From positions 1 to 21,424 of the IMG/VR virus record IMGVR_UViG_3300037086_000135: a DNA stretch of 21,424 nt; one strand, written 5' to 3'. This document shows, one piece after another, positions 6,317-20,109 of this stretch; the first letter of the stretch is position 1, and each line of letters opens with the position of its first letter. The translations under genes and the position numbers were made by a program. This DNA comes from a virus. Under the pieces are notes generated by a model that worked only from the letters and a program-made list of their open reading frames with translations, made no database searches and was not told the origin of the DNA.

Positions 6317-6878
6317 GGAACTACGAGAGAAACTATATCTCGCATTGCAAAGTGAGAGTCATGCCATGTCTCGATGGGAAGCAGCGGCACTTCTCAATAC
6401 CTTTAGGGTTGCCGTTGACGCTGAGGCATTTGCAAGGGGCCGTGCGGAAGGGGAAGAGCAGGTGAAAGGGGACATACGGAAAGCAGCAGATGGGTGGGCA
6501 GAGAGGTACGAATATGCACCGATGCGTGGAACGTGTGTTGTTCCAGAGTCTCTCCTCGCCCCTGCCCGTGCAGAAGGCAAGGCAGAGGGAGAGGAACGGT
6601 TGCAAAAGTATACCGAAGAATATCTCAAAGAGGGCATCAAGCGATGTAATGCGGCTCTCGCTCAGGGCCGCGTAGAAGGGGCAGAACAGGAGAGGCACAA
6701 GCAGAAAGTTGAACAGGAAATCAAAGATGTACGCGCAGAGATAGAGGCATATGACCAGTTCCTTGTCATAATCCCTAAGGATCTGGCCCTCACCCGTATG
6801 GACTATGAAACCAAGAAGAAAGATGCAGAGGAACGGTTAGCCGTCCTCTCCCCTGCCCCGAAGGAGAGTGAGAAATGA
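6306..6878 (+). CDS. Coiled-coil protein with AEG repeats, 190 aa
   Basis: ATG at 6306 follows AAGGAGG with good spacing. Most of the protein is highly charged helix. Three related segments recur: GRAEGEEQ (about 45), RAEGKAEGEERLQ (about 89) and GRVEGAEQERHKQ (about 120), each followed by a helical stretch. This suggests internal duplication of a coiled-coil unit. The C-terminal part (EIKDVRAEIEAYDQFL) is also coiled-coil-like. No catalytic motif or membrane segment is present. It is possibly a scaffold or oligomeric accessory protein, without a recognised family. Confidence 0.75.
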   Translation: MTVEELREKLYLALQSESHAMSRWEAAALLNTFRVAVDAEAFARGRAEGEEQVKGDIRKAADGWAERYEYAPMRGTCVVPESLLAPARAEGKAEGEERLQKYTEEYLKEGIKRCNAALAQGRVEGAEQERHKQKVEQEIKDVRAEIEAYDQFLVIIPKDLALTRMDYETKKKDAEERLAVLSPAPKESEK

Positions 6879-9273: not shown

Positions 9274-10971
9274 ATGGCGATTGATCTAAAACAGGCGCAT
9301 CCTTTTCTGGACGCGCTCTTTGGCAACATGGCCGCCGGTGAGTTCTTTCTTGTGTGGACTCTCGCCGACAGCCGTTCGACATGGTTTCAAGATGTGGATG
9401 TGGCATGTGCCGCACTGACGGGTCCTCTGTTCAATAACAAGGACGTCTACACCGGTATGTGTACCTCGCACACCGATCTCGGTCCACTGCGGCGTGGAGA
9501 GGCTGCCGCTGTCGCCTCGATGGGCTGCTTGTGGGCGGATATTGACATCGGCAAGGACGGACACGCTCCGGGGAAAAACTATCCGCCGACGGTCGAAGAT
9601 GAAATGACCGTGTTGTCTGCATATCCCAAACCCTCGATGATTGTTTCTACCGGCCACGGCCTTCACGTCTACTGGCTTTTCCGTGAACGGTTCGACACAT
9701 CGCGTCCTGCTGATAATACGGCTGCCGCAGAACTTTCGAAGGGCTGGCAAATGCTTATTGGCAGGGATATGAAAGCGAGGGGATGGGACCTTGACCCGAC
9801 GGCAGACCTTGCCCGTATTCTTAGGATACCGGGAACGAGCAATTTCAAAAGTCACGAGCATATTCTGCCCGTTACCCTAATAGAGGACAACCACATACGT
9901 TATGACTGGCTGGAACTATCAAAAATGATTCCGTCAGACATTAAGTCGGCTGTGGTGGCACAAACGAAACATACGAAGCCCAGCGGTATCGGCGCGTTGA
10001 AGCTGGACGAGAACCGCGTGCTGGATGGGGACAAGACGGGGGAACTGCAAGACAAGTTCGGTGCGAAGTTCAGAGATAGTTACGACCGCGTGAAGCCTCT
10101 CCCCGGCGGCGACCGGTCTCCTTCCGCCTACGACGCTTCTCTGGCGATGTACGGTGTCATCGCGGGATGGAACGACCAGCAGATAGCGGATATTCTGATT
10201 ATGTCAAGACGTAAGGCACATCAGGACTTGAAGCTAAGGCAGGATTATTACGCAAGGACGATCGCCTCAGCACGCGCCGAGGTGACAAAGACGGAGGGAA
10301 TTGAAGAACTGCTCTCGCAGGCGCAGAGCACACCTGAGTCTATTGCGGCGCTGAATATTACAGAGGATGAGGCGCGGAGACGGCAGCTCGACAGCCTCAG
10401 CACCGTCCTCGGCGTCCATGTGGACCGTATTGTAAAATACGATGTGGACCCCGACCCGATGTTCTGGATGGAGGTGGGCGGCAGCAGGCGTGTTCGCATC
10501 GGCACCGTGGATGTCATCATGGAGGAGCGAAAGTTCAAGAACAAGGTGATGGGGATGATAGGAGCATTGCTTCCCGACTTCAAGCGAACGGAGTGGGAGA
10601 AGATCGCGCAGTTGATTGTGAACAGCGCTGAGGTGGCAGATGGCATCGTGGACGGGAGGTTCGAGGACAGTACGAAGTCCCTCGTTTCGGAGTACCTTCT
10701 TGCCACCAAAGTGAGCGAGGACCCGAACGAGGCCGCTGCGCTGGGGATGCCGTTCACGAAGGACGGCAAGATTTTCATTTCTGTCGAGTCGCTGAAACAG
10801 TGGGTGTACTACACGCGCCACCAGCGCATCGAGCCACAGGACCTGGCGCAGTTCCTCACGAACGCCGGGTGCGCGTCGAAGCAGATGCACTTCGTTATGC
10901 GGGCGTCGGGCAAAAGCACGAGCCGCCGCGTGTGGCAAGTGCCGTCAGAGTTGATCCCGGGAACGGGATAA
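9274..10971 (+). CDS. AEP-type DNA primase (primase-polymerase), 565 aa
   Basis: It makes primers for phage DNA replication and may also extend them. The N-terminal catalytic domain shows the archaeo-eukaryotic primase pattern: DID metal-binding motif (89-91, in LWADIDIG), STGHGLHVYWLF (125-136) with the conserved His, and LDPTADLARILRIPGT (173-188), the third acidic motif and its R-x-x-R-x-PG-T extension. A linker (about 210-390) with PGGDRSPSAYDASL leads to a C-terminal domain of unknown type. No Walker A motif is present, so there is no fused helicase. GGAGG precedes ATG 9274. The frame ends at TAA 10969-10971, inside a 19-base direct repeat. Confidence 0.9.
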   Translation: MAIDLKQAHPFLDALFGNMAAGEFFLVWTLADSRSTWFQDVDVACAALTGPLFNNKDVYTGMCTSHTDLGPLRRGEAAAVASMGCLWADIDIGKDGHAPGKNYPPTVEDEMTVLSAYPKPSMIVSTGHGLHVYWLFRERFDTSRPADNTAAAELSKGWQMLIGRDMKARGWDLDPTADLARILRIPGTSNFKSHEHILPVTLIEDNHIRYDWLELSKMIPSDIKSAVVAQTKHTKPSGIGALKLDENRVLDGDKTGELQDKFGAKFRDSYDRVKPLPGGDRSPSAYDASLAMYGVIAGWNDQQIADILIMSRRKAHQDLKLRQDYYARTIASARAEVTKTEGIEELLSQAQSTPESIAALNITEDEARRRQLDSLSTVLGVHVDRIVKYDVDPDPMFWMEVGGSRRVRIGTVDVIMEERKFKNKVMGMIGALLPDFKRTEWEKIAQLIVNSAEVADGIVDGRFEDSTKSLVSEYLLATKVSEDPNEAAALGMPFTKDGKIFISVESLKQWVYYTRHQRIEPQDLAQFLTNAGCASKQMHFVMRASGKSTSRRVWQVPSELIPGTG

Positions 10972-11181: not shown

Positions 11182-11541
11182 ATGGGCGAACGGATTGAAC
11201 TTGCTTGTATCAACGCTGAACCTATTGTTATCGTAAGCGCGAGAAGGGTGCATACGGTAACTCTTTCTGAACACGGTGGAAAGTGGAACGATACCTCGTT
11301 CTACTTCAAGACAGACGGCGGCGTGGAGCTAGAGATTGATACCTACGATATGCTCTACTTTGGTGGTTTTCGGGGCGAGGTTGCCGTTAAGACATTCCGC
11401 GTCCTTGACGAGCCGTTTCCGGAACGCTGGTTGCAGATTGTAGCAGGACTATTGGTGATGCTGCAAGCCGCCCCGCTGGAAGAGGTGGTGAAGGACGAGA
11501 GAGAGAAGGTTGACCCGCAGGAGGAACTGAAGGCTGCATAG
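11182..11541 (+). CDS. Hypothetical protein, 119 aa
   Basis: ATG 11182 follows the second copy of the AAGGAG leader. The N-terminal part is beta-rich (IVIVSARRVHTVTLSEHGGKW, then WNDTSFYFKTDGGVELEIDTYD). The C-terminal part is helical and slightly hydrophobic (WLQIVAGLLVMLQAAPLEEVV), ending in a charged tail and KAA. The hydrophobic stretch is short and amphipathic, so a soluble protein is more likely than a membrane one. I do not recognise a family. Confidence 0.7.
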   Translation: MGERIELACINAEPIVIVSARRVHTVTLSEHGGKWNDTSFYFKTDGGVELEIDTYDMLYFGGFRGEVAVKTFRVLDEPFPERWLQIVAGLLVMLQAAPLEEVVKDEREKVDPQEELKAA

Positions 11542-11568
11542 CGCGTTCTGAAAACAGACAAAGCATAG

Positions 11569-11663
11569 GGGGCGATGATGATGACTTGGGCAGCTTCTTC
11601 TGGTTCTGTTTTACCCTCCTTCTCCACGATCGCCCCTCAACGGGCGAACTTCCCGCAGGGAGG
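11569..11663 (+). promoter_or_regulatory. Leader with mutually exclusive stems before the HNH-like gene
   Basis: GGGGCGAT (11569-11576) can pair with ATCGCCCC (11629-11636), but the TCGCCC part of that arm can instead pair with GGGCGA (11642-11647) in a tight 6-bp stem with a 6-base loop. A short TCCC / GGGA stem (11651-11661) then covers part of the GGGAGG ribosome site. The layout resembles an attenuator. It is valid only if the downstream gene starts at 11665 or 11668 rather than at 11575. Confidence 0.35.
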
Positions 11664-11664
11664 C

Positions 11665-12312
11665 ATGGTGCTGAATGAGATTGATATTCGTGAGGACGTG
11701 GTATACGTTACTCTTCCCGACCGCTGTTCAGACTGCGGAGGTTCAGTCTCTGTGGTGATCGACAAGGATGATTTGGAAAAGATGGATGCGGCAACAGACG
11801 GCTTCTGGCAGTATGCCAAGCCGGGGTGTCACTCCGAGGGCGTGTACCTTCCGCAAAAGAGGAATGTGCTGGTCGGCCTCGCCCGTCTTCTCCTCGACGC
11901 CCCTCGTGGCACGTGGCGGCTCTTCAAGGACGGAGACCCGCTAAACTGCCGTCGTTCCAACCTTGGCCTCCTTCCACATTATCCGCGTCAGCAGGACTGG
12001 CTGTGGAACGCTCCTCTGCCTTGCGGGTTTACGGAGCTGTGCAGGTCGGAGAACTACATCATGGTCTGCGCTGAACGAGGCGCAGACAACAGATTGATGT
12101 GGCAGTATCTCCTTGAACGCTGGCAGTTCTGCCGATATCACGACATCTCGTTATCCGTTCCACGTATCCACACAGTGCGGACCTCATGGCTGAAACGTCT
12201 GACCGTTATCGTCAAAGAGGAACGACAGTGCTATTCCTTCGACATCGGTGATGACGGGGCGAGGGAGAACTGCCAGTACGACGTGAGAGAGACCGAAGAG
12301 ATGGCGGCATGA
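11665..12312 (+). CDS. HNH/AP2-type homing-endonuclease-like protein with lost catalytic His
   Basis: The layout fits small phage HNH proteins: an N-terminal strand set with IDKDDLEKMD and a tryptophan, then a short YLP strand, LARLLLDAPRGTWRLFKDGD (about 72-91) and PLNCRRSNLGLL. In active members these read LHRL, then VDH-x-DGD-x-LDNR-x-x-NL. Here the first His is Ala and the VDH His is replaced (WRLF), while N and R residues of the last motif remain. It is therefore probably inactive as a nuclease and may only bind DNA. Starts at 11575-11581, 11665 (ATG, one base after GGAGG) and 11668 (GTG) are all possible. Confidence 0.65.
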   Translation: MVLNEIDIREDVVYVTLPDRCSDCGGSVSVVIDKDDLEKMDAATDGFWQYAKPGCHSEGVYLPQKRNVLVGLARLLLDAPRGTWRLFKDGDPLNCRRSNLGLLPHYPRQQDWLWNAPLPCGFTELCRSENYIMVCAERGADNRLMWQYLLERWQFCRYHDISLSVPRIHTVRTSWLKRLTVIVKEERQCYSFDIGDDGARENCQYDVRETEEMAA

Positions 12313-12458
12313 GAGCGCAGGGCAAGGGCAACGCCGCGTGCTGGGATTGTCGCCTATACATTGTCATCAACGGCGTCCCGATGTGCTGTGCAACGGCTCA
12401 GAATGTCCCGATCCTCGTCAAGCCCATAAAGTGCGACAAGCGGGAAACGAAGAAGTGA
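12309..12458 (+). CDS. Small Cys-rich protein, 49 aa
   Basis: ATG 12309 overlaps the previous TGA, and GTG 12455 of the methyltransferase overlaps its TGA. It holds a CWDC pair, a CC pair and a later Cys (IKCDKRE). This could be a small zinc-binding protein. Its sequence NAACWDCRLYIVINGVPMCC suggests a compact zinc ribbon with one arm incomplete. No known family is recognised. The exact overlaps on both sides support a real gene. Confidence 0.55.
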   Translation: MRAQGKGNAACWDCRLYIVINGVPMCCATAQNVPILVKPIKCDKRETKK

Positions 12459-13819
12459 CGGATATTCGTATTGGCGATTGCCTGCAAGTCATGCCGACCC
12501 TTCCAGAAAATAGTGTGGACAGCATTATAACAGACCCACCCTATGGCCTTGATTTCATGGGCAAGGAATGGGATCACGGTGTTCCTGGTGTGGAGTTCTG
12601 GCAAGCCGCCCTCCGTGTTGCCAAACCCGGGGCAATCCTGATGGCCTTTGGTGGTACTCGTACCTTTCACCGTCTAGCCTGTGCCATTGAGGACGCAGGT
12701 TGGGAACTGCGCGATACGATGTGCTGGCTCTACGGTTCAGGATTCCCGAAGTCGCTGGACATCAGCAAGGCGATTGATAAGGCGGCACCACGGGAGGGGA
12801 TGTTTGCTGGATTTGCTGCAGATTTTTTGGAGCAAGTTCGTAGGGCGGGTCTTTCGTATAAATCAGTTGCCCAGGGTTTTCTCAGCAAGACAGGGGGAAT
12901 CACCGGATGCGCGTGGAACTGGGCACATGGGCTAAGCGTTCCAACGCTTGAGCAATGGCATACTTTGAAATCTCTATTTCCGCATTTGTCGAGTGAGTGG
13001 CTGCCCCTCATTGAACGAGTAGAAGCCGAACGTGAAGTGGTGGGGCAATCGCCGCGGTCCTATCGAGTTGGAATACCGCTTCCGGGTACATACGACGGGA
13101 AACGGCAGATGCTAGACATCACCACCCCCGCTACCGATTCCGCAAAGCAATGGCAAGGTTATGGTACTGCCTTGAAGCCCGCATGGGAGCCAATCATCGT
13201 TGCCATGAAGCCATTGGAAGGAACCTATGCCGAGAATGCGCAGAAGTGGGGCGTGGCAGGACTATGGATAGAAGGCGGAAGAATTGGTGGCATTGGCGGT
13301 GTTCGCAAGGTTAACATAAAGCCGAATAGTGGCGGATTCAACGGAGAGGACTTCGGCTGTGATGGCGACCTTGAACCCGCTGGCGGTCGTTGGCCTGCCA
13401 ATCTCCTGCTCGACGAGGAAAGCGCACCCCTTCTCGGCGGTGCTTCCCGCTTTTTTTATACAGCGAAAGCGTCTGCAAGCGAGAGGAACGCGGGGCTGGA
13501 AGATTGCGAACCACAGTTTGCGCCGGCTATGGGGAATGGCATAGGTGGCAAGGAACATGACCCCGAAACAGCAACCAAGAAGTTGAATATTCACCCTACA
13601 GTGAAGCCTGTCGACCTCATGCGCTATCTCTGCAAGTTGACCAAGACCCCAACAGGCGGTGTTGTCCTTGACCCCTTCATGGGTTCAGGTACGACAGGAA
13701 TTGCTTGTATTTTGGAGCATCGAGACTTCATCGGGATTGAGATAGACGAGAAGTATGCGGAGATCGCCAAGAAGAGAATTGCAGACATGGAAGGGCCATT
13801 GTTCCAAGAGGCCGCATGA
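12455..13819 (+). CDS. Beta-class DNA N6-adenine/N4-cytosine methyltransferase, 454 aa
   Basis: Transfers a methyl group from S-adenosylmethionine to the exocyclic amine of a base, likely to shield phage DNA from host restriction. Catalytic motif IV DPPY (27-30, followed by GLDFMGKEWDHG) comes first and the cofactor motif I DPFMGSGT (406-413) last, the order of the beta class. In between, IHPTVKPVDLMRYL is the usual motif X region. About residues 110-185 form an inserted helical domain (SYKSVAQGF, TGGITGCAWNW). Start GTG 12455 overlaps the previous stop (GTGA). No restriction endonuclease gene is next to it, so it is an orphan methylase. Confidence 0.9.
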   Translation: MTDIRIGDCLQVMPTLPENSVDSIITDPPYGLDFMGKEWDHGVPGVEFWQAALRVAKPGAILMAFGGTRTFHRLACAIEDAGWELRDTMCWLYGSGFPKSLDISKAIDKAAPREGMFAGFAADFLEQVRRAGLSYKSVAQGFLSKTGGITGCAWNWAHGLSVPTLEQWHTLKSLFPHLSSEWLPLIERVEAEREVVGQSPRSYRVGIPLPGTYDGKRQMLDITTPATDSAKQWQGYGTALKPAWEPIIVAMKPLEGTYAENAQKWGVAGLWIEGGRIGGIGGVRKVNIKPNSGGFNGEDFGCDGDLEPAGGRWPANLLLDEESAPLLGGASRFFYTAKASASERNAGLEDCEPQFAPAMGNGIGGKEHDPETATKKLNIHPTVKPVDLMRYLCKLTKTPTGGVVLDPFMGSGTTGIACILEHRDFIGIEIDEKYAEIAKKRIADMEGPLFQEAA

Positions 13820-17705: not shown

Positions 17706-18269
17706 TTATCCGCCCCGTAAATACTCCGCTAGTTTTGTCAGAAGCCCGGGATCGTCATGGGTCATTCCGAGTGCGATATTACACTGAGTGCACAAAAGTC
17801 CCCGAACCTTGCCGGTAATGTGGTCGTGGTCTATGTGCATTCTTTTTCTTTTCCCTGCTTGGATTGCCCCAGAGTGTTCCCTTCCGCATACGGCACACCT
17901 TCCGTTTTGCGCTTGGTATAGTTCATCGTACTCTTTCTGCGTAATTCCATATCTTGCAAAACATGCGTCAGTTCCCCACTGTCTCTCTTTTTTCTTTCGG
18001 CACTCTGGACAATACTTCTGCGTTGAATTACCCGGTTGAAACTCCTTTCCGCAGAGAATGCAAATGCGGGATTTGTGGGGTTTACCGGGTTTTCTATTTG
18101 GGAATTGTGCGTGACCCAAGGTTTGTTGCGTTTTCCTGATGAGCAAACCATGCATGGCGTCGGCTTCATCTTTGCACTCGGGACAATATACCTGAAACCC
18201 ATTTGTGGGGACATACTCATCTCCACACCAAAAACAGCGCTTTGTCTTGAACTCTGGAATCTTTCTCAT
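17706..18269 (-). CDS. Endonuclease VII-like HNH nuclease with two zinc knuckles, 187 aa
   Basis: The C-terminal half matches the recombination endonuclease VII group: YDELYQAQNGRCAVCGR (114-130), HIDHDH (145-150) and GLLCTQCN (157-164) form the His-Me finger with its Cys-bound zinc. Such enzymes resolve branched DNA, or act as free-standing homing nucleases. The N-terminal half holds two copies of one zinc knuckle: C12/C15/C29/C32 and C70/C73/C87/C90, each ending YCPEC. The gene stands alone, opposite to the early genes, with its own promoter. ATG 18269 is chosen because the frame has no better start; its ribosome site (GGGAAG, about 12 bases off) is weak. Confidence 0.88.
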   Translation of the reverse strand: MRKIPEFKTKRCFWCGDEYVPTNGFQVYCPECKDEADAMHGLLIRKTQQTLGHAQFPNRKPGKPHKSRICILCGKEFQPGNSTQKYCPECRKKKERQWGTDACFARYGITQKEYDELYQAQNGRCAVCGREHSGAIQAGKRKRMHIDHDHITGKVRGLLCTQCNIALGMTHDDPGLLTKLAEYLRGG

Positions 18270-18305
18270 TGTCTCTCACTTCCCTTTCTTCCCTTGTCTG
18301 ATTGT

Positions 18306-18363
18306 TGGCGGCCCCGAAGGGAAGTTCGGTTTCATGTGGGTTCGAAGTCCACACTAGCCGCCG
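18306..18363 (-). ncRNA. Structured leader RNA before the HNH gene (possible three-way junction)
   Basis: GGCGGC and GCCGCC close a domain that holds two hairpins: GTGG / CCAC (on the plus strand GTGGGTTCGAAGTCCAC, 18336-18352) and CCGAA / TTCGG with a 6-base loop (18314-18329). The predicted start of minus-strand RNA is at the first base of the closing stem, so it would be the 5' end of the HNH message. On the plus strand it resembles a tRNA without a D-arm, but the T-arm lacks the conserved C61. A leader fold is preferred. Confidence 0.45.
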
Positions 18364-18368
18364 TATTC

Positions 18369-18396
18369 ATTATACCACAAATGATGTTTGATGCAA
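18369..18396 (-). promoter_or_regulatory. Promoter of the HNH gene
   Basis: On the minus strand, TTGCAT (18396-18391), 16-base spacer, perfect TATAAT (18374-18369). RNA should start near 18362, at the first base of the folded leader, about 90 bases before the HNH start codon. Confidence 0.6.
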
Positions 18397-18452
18397 CACA
18401 GGAACAGGGTTCCATTTTCGATTGTTGCGCTTTCGGTTAACAATCCAGCATG

Positions 18453-18518
18453 GAGGTGTCCGGCATTTCCCGAGGTGTCCCGAGGTGTGCCTGGGTGTCG
18501 GGAGGTGTCGGGAGGTGT
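18453..18518 (+). repeat. Iterons with 10-bp period
   Basis: GAGGTGT or a one-base variant recurs at 18472, 18482, 18492 (TGGGTGT), 18502 and 18512, exactly 10 bp apart, plus one outlying copy at 18453. The flanking bases change from CCC to CGG to the right. One copy per helical turn would place all sites on one face of the DNA. Confidence 0.7.
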
Positions 18519-18574
18519 TCCACGCTTTTACGTCCATAAAAGTGAGAGGGGTTACACTTTCAAGGGGGTATCGT

Positions 18575-18592
18575 TTTGTTGACGTCAACAAA
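18575..18592. repeat. 18-bp perfect palindrome
   Basis: TTTGTTGACGTCAACAAA, perfectly self-complementary, about 55 bp after the iterons. It looks like a binding site for a dimeric protein. Confidence 0.6.
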
Positions 18593-18753
18593 TCGATCAA
18601 CTCTTCGGAATTACCGGATACTTCAAATAATTTTAAGGTATGTGCAACTGGTTACGGATCATAACCGCTTGCGAGAAAGTTGCCAAGCTTGCACACTTAC
18701 TTGTCAAAACCGTGCGTACATGTAAGGAATGTTTACAGGTTCGGGGAAAAGTT

Positions 18754-18853
18754 ACAACTCATGATGTGTACACTCAATGGACATATCCTCCGTGATCTGT
18801 ACACGTTTTGCCATTTTGTGTACACATGCCCCGATTATCTGCATATGAGTTGT
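18754..18853. repeat. GTGTACAC boxes flanked by a 9-bp inverted repeat
   Basis: ACAACTCAT (18754-18762) and ATGAGTTGT (18845-18853) are perfect inverted arms. Between them are GTGTACAC (18766-18773), CTGTACAC (18797-18804) and GTGTACAC (18818-18825), about three and two helical turns apart. The 8-bp box is itself palindromic. A related TGTGCACC lies just outside (18861). Confidence 0.55.
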
Positions 18854-18950
18854 TGTCAAATGTGCACCTACTGAAAAGCAATATGCATTAAACGCACATA
18901 AGGTATAATTCCAGGTTGGAGATGTATACTCAAATCCGTATCTATCCCAA

Positions 18951-19000
18951 ACAATAATAAGAATCCCGCTATTATTGTAAAAGGGCAGTTTGCAATAATA
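18951..19000. repeat. CAATAATA repeats, two of them inverted
   Basis: ACAATAATA (18951-18959) and TATTATTGT (18970-18978) form a 9-bp perfect inverted repeat, and GCAATAATA follows at 18992-19000. They are AT-rich, so this may be an easily melted or protein-binding element. Confidence 0.45.
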
Positions 19001-19187
19001 AGGCAAATATCTTAACGCAATTCACGTTTCGTGTAACCCATAACGTGTTACGCAAGGTGCGTCATGCTCCGATCGTGGTATTCCAAGAGAATAATTCCAA
19101 AGGATATTGCCGGTTTGCTCCACTTATCGCGCCCCTGACACGAATACTAGAGCAACAACTTAACAGCGGGATAGGGTACATAATGCG

Positions 19188-19239
19188 AGAGCCGACCTGT
19201 CGTAGCATCGGCTCTGGATCTCTTTCCGCACTTGGCGGA
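19188..19239 (-). terminator. Inverted repeats after the metallophosphoesterase gene, possible late terminator
   Basis: AGAGCCGA (19188-19195) and TCGGCTCT (19208-19215) form an 8-bp stem with a 12-base loop. A second short stem, TCCGC / GCGGA, lies at 19225-19239. Both are downstream of the last leftward late gene. Neither has a clear U-tract on the minus strand, so termination is only likely by position. Confidence 0.3.
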
Positions 19240-19296
19240 TGAGTCTCTTGCCTCTCTGGGCAGCGTGGTCACCGTAATCTGACCCTATGGACCAAT

Positions 19297-19320
19297 CTAC
19301 TGCGTCACGCTACTGCGTCA
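19297..19320. repeat. 11-base direct repeat at the end of the metallophosphoesterase gene
   Basis: CTACTGCGTCA occurs at 19297-19307 and 19310-19320. The second copy contains the stop codon. It probably reflects a small slippage duplication. Confidence 0.5.
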
Positions 19321-20109
19321 TTCTGAAACGTGTATATCCTTACGGCAACCATCCAACCTGATTCTCGGAGCACCCATGTGCGTCGGGGGCAGTCCCTTCT
19401 CTTCTGCATAGGAACCCTCCCAGCTGAGGAAACTGCCGGAGTCCACGAGGAACACCTTGTCGGCCTTCACTCGTGCCTCGCCCGAGGAGTCGGTGTGCAA
19501 ACGGTAGCGGTCGATAGGCACGCCCGCCTCCATGTGGTTGTGCGCCCCAATCAGGGCGTCTGCTCCCTCGAAGATTTCAGCGAGCTTCGCCACGCGGTTT
19601 AGTTTGCCCCCTGGCGTAGAGCCGCCTCCTGTCGTGTGATGGCAGTAGAGCGTGTAGTTGATCCTCGTGGAATCGTAGGCTTTCCCGTCGATGTTCCTCG
19701 GCGTGTGGCCTACCCGGTAGCGCATCACCGCAGAGAACCCCGCATAAGGTACACCCAGGTCATCGCACAAATCCTCTATCAAGTCGCAGTCTGCGTAACG
19801 CACTAAGCGCATCTCGTGGTTCCCGATGATCATGGTGTCAATTAGGTCTTTCACTGAACCCAATCTGTCTTTTGCATACTTCTTCGCTTCCCTGAGACCC
19901 ATGCTTGCACCGAACGGGCTGGACACGCCGCCTATGACCACTGTGTCAAAAATGTCACCCATGATGACGATGTGTGCTTTCTCTCTCCGCGCCCACTTCA
20001 GGTATTCCTCGAACTTCTCCAAGTCGGTTTGTGGAGAACCCAAATGCAGATCGCCCAACGGGAGAACATAGCAAGAAGTCCGCCTGTCCTCAACCTCAAC
20101 GAGTCTCAA
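19318..20109 (-). CDS. Metallophosphoesterase (calcineurin-like), 263 aa
   Basis: Hydrolyses phosphoester bonds with a two-metal centre. All signature motifs are visible: GDLHLG (19-24), GDIFD (51-55), GNHE (96-99), YCHHT (155-159) and GAHNH (188-192, a variant of GHxH). Most bacteriophage members of this kind are thought to act on nucleic acid or nucleotides, but the substrate cannot be read here. The start is TTG 20109, overlapping the TGA of the HEMGH gene; there is no strong ribosome site, so translation is probably coupled. It is the last gene of the leftward lysis block. Confidence 0.88.
   Translation of the reverse strand: MRLVEVEDRRTSCYVLPLGDLHLGSPQTDLEKFEEYLKWARREKAHIVIMGDIFDTVVIGGVSSPFGASMGLREAKKYAKDRLGSVKDLIDTMIIGNHEMRLVRYADCDLIEDLCDDLGVPYAGFSAVMRYRVGHTPRNIDGKAYDSTRINYTLYCHHTTGGGSTPGGKLNRVAKLAEIFEGADALIGAHNHMEAGVPIDRYRLHTDSSGEARVKADKVFLVDSGSFLSWEGSYAEEKGLPPTHMGAPRIRLDGCRKDIHVSE

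Follow-up and report, generated by a model that had tools for sequence, protein, structure and literature searches.

The closest described systems are found in the cluster A mycobacteriophages, in which a ~600-bp region that lacks a rep gene lies upstream of parA and expresses a noncoding RNA directed opposite to parA (PMC7157519). Stable lysogeny depends on this region, which can also drive plasmid replication when parABS is absent, and the RNA-based prophage origins of cluster A were, to the knowledge of the authors who described them, the first of their kind (PMC7157519). In RedRock, a phage of this cluster, the parS sites contain an 8-bp motif repeated directly eight times (PMC7157519). 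Short tandem direct repeats with a period of about one helical turn also form the upstream centromeres of type Ib and type II plasmid partition systems, such as parS of pSM19035 and parC of R1 (PMC5016525).

The stretch examined here, hereafter the window, is an entire IMG/VR record of 21,424 bases and probably a fragment. A repeat array within it had been read in the initial annotation as the iterons of a replication origin. The array and its surroundings comprise the following features.

17706-18269, - strand: endonuclease VII-like HNH gene, the left neighbour of the array, not array-adjacent in other phages.
18300-18375, - strand: TATAAT promoter-like box and putative three-way-junction leader of the neighbouring HNH gene, as read from the sequence.
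18453-18518, + strand: repeat array of six GAGGTGT-type units, with gaps of 19, 10, 10, 10 and 10 bp.
18525-18542, no strand: dyad CTTTTACGTCCATAAAAG immediately 3' of the array, equal to the CACTTTTACGG element of the relatives G005, G009 and G016.
18570-18597, no strand: palindrome around TTTTGTTGACGTCAACAAA, recurring in G004, G016 and G018.
18601-19000, no strand: the most AT-rich part of the window, without a gene, GC 0.39.
18900-18952, + strand: conserved block AAGGTATAATT...CCGTATCTATCCCAAAC, a predicted rightward promoter-like -10.
19183-19250, + strand: two hairpins, GAGAGCCG..CGGCTCT and CCGC..GCGG, which precede a structured RNA in relatives.
19318-20109, - strand: metallophosphatase gene at the end of the late block, the right neighbour and the anchor for finding relatives.

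To the left of the HNH gene lie rightward early genes encoding an SNF2-type helicase, a primase-like protein, a methyltransferase, a UvrD-like helicase and a PD-(D/E)XK nuclease, and to the right lies a leftward late block, of which the metallophosphatase gene forms the end. The sequence beyond this gene suggests an endolysin-like ORF, a reading that does not come from a family match. ARAGORN detected no tRNA. The palindrome reported earlier proved to be real, with arms at 18570-18583 and 18584-18597, and the AT-rich gene-free DNA was found as described, with no credible gene from 18270 to 19317.

Exact GAGGTGT copies start the array at 18453-18459 and recur at 18472-18478, 18482-18488, 18502-18508 and 18512-18518, with TGGGTGT at 18492-18498; this bears out the description of a run of five units at 10-bp intervals with another copy at 18453, which lies 19 bp upstream. 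All five exact copies of GAGGTGT in the 21.4-kb window are inside the array and on the + strand, and Tandem Repeats Finder reported 18468-18518, with a period of 10, as the top-scoring array of the window. We searched for chains of 7-mers with at most one mismatch to the first, at periods of 8-25, in the window and in 60 length-matched first-order Markov sequences. A chain of five was found in the window at period 10 only, with no second such place, and was never reached in the controls, whose longest chains were of three (34 times), two (25 times) and four (once). The flank shifts from CCC to CGG across the array, as had been noted, the hexamers between the GGTG cores being TCCCGA, TGCCTG, TCGGGA and TCGGGA.

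Searches with proteins and DNA patterns yielded 13 distinct records holding the region, the window (G000) included; several are incomplete, and G002 and G019, near-copies of G003 and G018, were not counted as distinct. The array was present at the corresponding place in eight records (G000, G003, G005, G009, G013, G016, G017 and G018) and missing from the other five (G001, G004, G010, G011 and G012). The search for conserved repeats in related phages that had been proposed with the initial annotation was thereby answered positively, with three to six units at exact 10-bp spacing in eight distinct phages. Among 38 units, GTGT at positions 4-7 was invariant, GAG and C strongly predominated at positions 1-3 and 8, and positions 9-10 varied; the unit-picking pattern fixed GTGT and restricted positions 2, 3 and 8, so that conservation there is partly a result of how the units were chosen, while the 10-bp spacing and the spacer variation are unaffected by it. 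The core was accordingly refined in the relatives to GAGGTGTC followed by a 2-bp spacer. Only the first gap departed from 10 bp: it measured 19 bp in G000, G005 and G013, and in G017 a weak extra unit lies at a distance of 21 bp. Since the 19-bp gap recurs in G005 and G013, its presence in the window array does not represent decay. Conserved in this way, the array is a maintained feature and not a chance one. After the last unit, in fixed phase, comes one of two elements: NCACTTTTACGG, which the window and G003 carry in slightly altered form, or GTGACCATTT...AATGGGG. When fifteen sequence blocks were scored in the 13 records, their order was mostly kept and each block occurred well above the chance rate, with the complete set found in no record. 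The region is present in G016 though most of its proteins are without a relative in the other phages, which points to a cis-acting region moving between phages.

In the relatives, the stretch from the array region to the end of the late genes contains a region of ~140 nt, located downstream of the conserved -10-like block, and inspection by eye placed a TTGACA-N17-TATA-like sequence upstream of it in several of them as well. Alignment of nine phages gave a multibranch fold of 40 pairs, 24 of which show compensatory changes. Pairing was retained in 96.9% of the cells, a value matched by none of 500 shuffles, and sliding the partners abolished it. The + strand is favoured by G-U pairs; the consensus energies of the two strands are close. 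A covariance model found a match in ten relatives, including G016, which lay outside the alignment. Six of the ten loci are as follows.

L027, 8411-8545, + strand: structured RNA.
L026, 1459-1593, - strand: structured RNA.
L128, 15025-15160, - strand: structured RNA.
L126, 18440-18579, + strand: structured RNA.
L071, 5029-5162, - strand: structured RNA.
L123, 5900-6035, - strand: structured RNA.

The model found no RNA domain in the window, G009 or G012, and the window keeps only the two hairpins that precede the RNA. Rfam gave no match in the window, L003, L005, L006 or L007, and the RNA model R1 gave none in 400 genomes of one phylum. The structured RNA is undescribed so far, and its transcription is predicted.

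We found that the present group and the parABS phages of cluster A (RedRock, Alma, LadyBird, Gladiator and Et2Brutus; PMC7157519) share several traits: a region without genes that follows the virion genes, parA next to this region in some relatives, the lack of a rep gene, an RNA directed away from parA (in the present group, by prediction), short direct repeats of ~8 bp, and low sequence conservation between phages. Unlike in cluster A, the presence of the array here is independent of parA, the RNA has a strong structure and is known from sequence, and the phage of the window is without parA and the RNA domain. Replication in cluster A was shown by cloning, whereas the likeness described here is one of layout, with no homology seen. 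By this analogy, the region most likely works like the cluster A origins, and its other members in the relatives, namely parA and the structured RNA, together with the lack of a tyrosine integrase match in the 13 records, suggest extrachromosomal maintenance. A resolvase-type recombinase was found only in G001 and G003 among these records. A second phage group with this layout, a strongly covarying RNA and a conserved array resembling docking sites for an unlinked protein would suggest a wider use of such lysogenic maintenance, for which a segment of ~1 kb is now defined.

The array itself probably provides docking sites for a protein other than the phage's own replication starter protein. With GAGGTGTC every 10 bp, all sites would lie on one helix face, and a sequence-specific DNA-binding protein, probably cooperative, may form a wrapped or filament-like complex on them. 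The array would then belong, as an optional module, to a conserved mosaic cis-acting region that separates the late from the early genes and most likely governs the maintenance of the phage genome in a plasmid-like state, with replication start or copy control from the rightward promoters and the structured RNA, and a partition operon alongside in some relatives. Because the array is independent of the replication module and no gene family is common to the array phages, the binder is probably host-encoded or the product of a gene unlinked to that module. We prefer this joint reading, of one-face binding sites for an unlinked, perhaps host-encoded protein in a modular maintenance or control region, while giving it somewhat less than an even chance of being correct as a whole. 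The array, the RNA and the partition genes do not travel together, as there are array-bearing records without the RNA domain or parA: the window, G003, G005, G009 and G013 have the array without parA, and the window, G009 and G012 are without the RNA domain. The function is least certain for the phage of the window, where the cassette is incomplete in the record; the absence of parA and the main RNA domain may mean that they were lost, or that the array is used differently here. A more specific proposal, which we regard as unlikely to hold in full, is an RNA-initiated modular prophage origin in an uncultivated phage group. Its cis-acting cassette, passed between phages with unrelated replication genes, would combine the undescribed structured RNA with a partition operon that has 11-bp repeats of its own and with a separate GAGGTGTC array for recruiting a host protein.

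Alternatively, the array may be an operator without a replication role, bound by a transcriptional regulator of the rightward promoters and the RNA, or of the leftward early operon in phages with all genes on one strand. Tandem sites on one helix face are typical of cooperative regulators, and the array keeps one orientation throughout, with the conserved promoter-like blocks, where present, downstream of it. However, the distance to the -10-like block is ~390 bp in the window and ~190 bp in G005, G003 has the array but not the promoter-like blocks, and no regulator gene is common to the array phages. Such an operator is an unlikely explanation.

A centromere of the parS/parC type, in which the repeats would be coated by a small partition protein on the pattern of type Ib or type II plasmid systems, was weighed against the distribution of partition genes. 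ParA is encoded near the region in five of the 13 records (G001, G004, G016, G017 and G018) and missing from the other eight, the window included. The gene is leftward beside the region in G001, G004, G017 and G018, whereas in G016 it is oppositely oriented and ~3.3 kb away from the array; small ORFs flank it in G017 and G018, and a small ORF follows it in G001 and G004. Tandem repeats near the helical period, as a centromere would have, occur at 10 bp in eight phages, and in the two lineages G017 and G018 they precede a small-ParA operon flanked by small ORFs. Type Ib and type II centromeres are likewise upstream tandem repeats (PMC5016525), and the eight 8-bp repeats of RedRock parS (PMC7157519) offer a phage parallel. 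A linked partition ATPase with a small binding protein is not a general companion of the array, as ParA occurs in only three of the eight array-bearing records. Unlike the plasmid centromeres, the array is also found without ParA: it is present in three of five parA-positive and five of eight parA-negative records, showing no association, and although the window is a fragment, the parA-negative array phages G003 and G005 have terminal repeats and are probably complete. A different element tracks parA instead. A TTTCCATTTTGGAAATAGCTCATGGGCC-like element was found at the locus in 5/5 parA-positive and 0/8 parA-negative records (with 0-2 mismatches in four and six in G004), an association noticed in the same 13 records, of which several are fragments, so that absences are not proof. 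Repeats of 11 bp, of the TTGGGACYAAG type, accompany this element in four of the five and occur also in G013. The TTTCCATTTTGGAAATAGCTCATGGGCC-like element is therefore a better par-site candidate than the array, and it is doubtful that the array serves as a centromere. The small par-linked proteins were rejected as its binder, as they are confined to G017/G018, without relatives among the other array phages. The parA-linked 11-bp repeat is now told apart from the parA-independent 10-bp one. In G001, G013, G016, G017 and G018, the 11-bp TTGGGACYAAG repeats are direct and lie 100-200 bp to the left of the array or its equivalent.

In the reading of the initial annotation, the repeats would be iterons of a classical origin, bound by the phage's own initiator, which melts the adjoining AT-rich DNA. 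The array, its conservation, the palindrome and the AT-rich gene-free DNA stood up to examination, and direct repeats beside AT-rich DNA (GC 0.39 at 18601-19000) are shared with theta-plasmid and phage P1 iterons. The present array differs from these in its 10-bp period, its lack of a linked initiator and its lack of DnaA boxes. Iterons are usually ~20 bp. We found the array with four initiation modules, none of them common to the array phages: primase-type (G000, G003), Phage_rep_O (G009), Phg_2220_C (G005 and, by BLAST cluster, G013) and DnaA-like (G016). Modules of the same kinds also occur without the array, namely primase in G001 and G004 and, by sequence cluster, Rep_O-like and related proteins in G010, G011 and G012. 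Apart from translations of the array itself, no gene family of at least 40 aa was common to all five long array-bearing records, and DnaA boxes, exact or with one mismatch, were at chance level in the 13 regions. GC skew, suggested earlier as a check, gave no origin signal and follows gene direction: there is no switch here in relatives with genes all one way, and where gene blocks converge a maximum, not a minimum, lies near the array region. Absence of the repeats with the gene order kept, which had been named as evidence against an origin, was found in part, G001 and G004 being array-less with the early/late order. Taken together, the four modules, their occurrence without the array, the lack of a common family, the chance-level DnaA boxes and the absence of an origin signal in the skew make iterons of a phage initiator unlikely, and we consider this part of the earlier reading quite improbable, even with a DnaA-like gene ~2 kb from the array in G016. 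The protein that binds the repeats would then come from the host or be a phage protein so diverged that it escaped detection. The DnaA-like protein of G016 (L122-L124; PF00308, E 2.5e-25) is encoded at 11343-12578 in reversed orientation; a ParA gene lies near it, and the other genes of G016 are mostly unrelated to those of the window.

Neutral tandem-repeat expansion without function is highly improbable, for although similar short tandem arrays occur in unrelated viral and bacterial genomes and copy number differs among the relatives, the core and phase are kept with diverged spacers in very different phages and the 19-bp first gap recurs, which only a very recent exchange among all eight phages could otherwise explain, whereas most unrelated arrays have identical spacers, as fresh duplication predicts.

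Several other candidates were rejected. A coding origin fails because repeats with a 10-bp period encode an identical 10-residue peptide whichever frame of a strand is read, and the apparent 'family' of the array phages is only that. For a Shine-Dalgarno decoy, the conserved positions 7-8 (TC) mismatch the anti-SD complement. An AP2-like protein (cluster 18) does not fit as the binder, as it is also found in the array-less G010, G011 and G012. Matches in L007 and in genome contigs share the motif only and are mostly duplications with identical spacers, and were not accepted as kin; in L007, a 203-kb phage record, 16 GRGGTGT units lie in 10-bp register at 807-991, some replaced by GTACATAAAA. 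The WhiA motif is GACAC (PMC3781837), which lies within the reverse complement GACACCTC; WhiA as the binder is only a lead.

As for the host, a metallophosphatase search of genome contigs found no prophage. Small proteins with the pattern VVGYLRPVxxWNKGKxxEW are encoded in G001 (27944-28150), G003 (6465-6707), G011 (9469-9666) and G012 (12552-12755). Their sequences are similar to the C-terminus of a G016 protein encoded at 21763-23790, apparently an anaerobic ribonucleotide reductase. They are perhaps a separate glycyl-radical domain and a hint at anaerobic hosts.

The HNH gene was rejected as the source of the array, as it has its own leader and the array occurs elsewhere without it. DNA resembling this leader is present in related phages at L023 (12534-12657, upstream of an HNH gene) and L028 (1788-1893 and 5728-5787), as if leader and gene travel together, and they form a separate mobile cassette outside the array module. 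At the 3' end of the metallophosphatase gene, CTACTGCGTCA occurs twice, 13 bp apart (19297-19320), and the same 11-mer is found at the corresponding place in five relatives.
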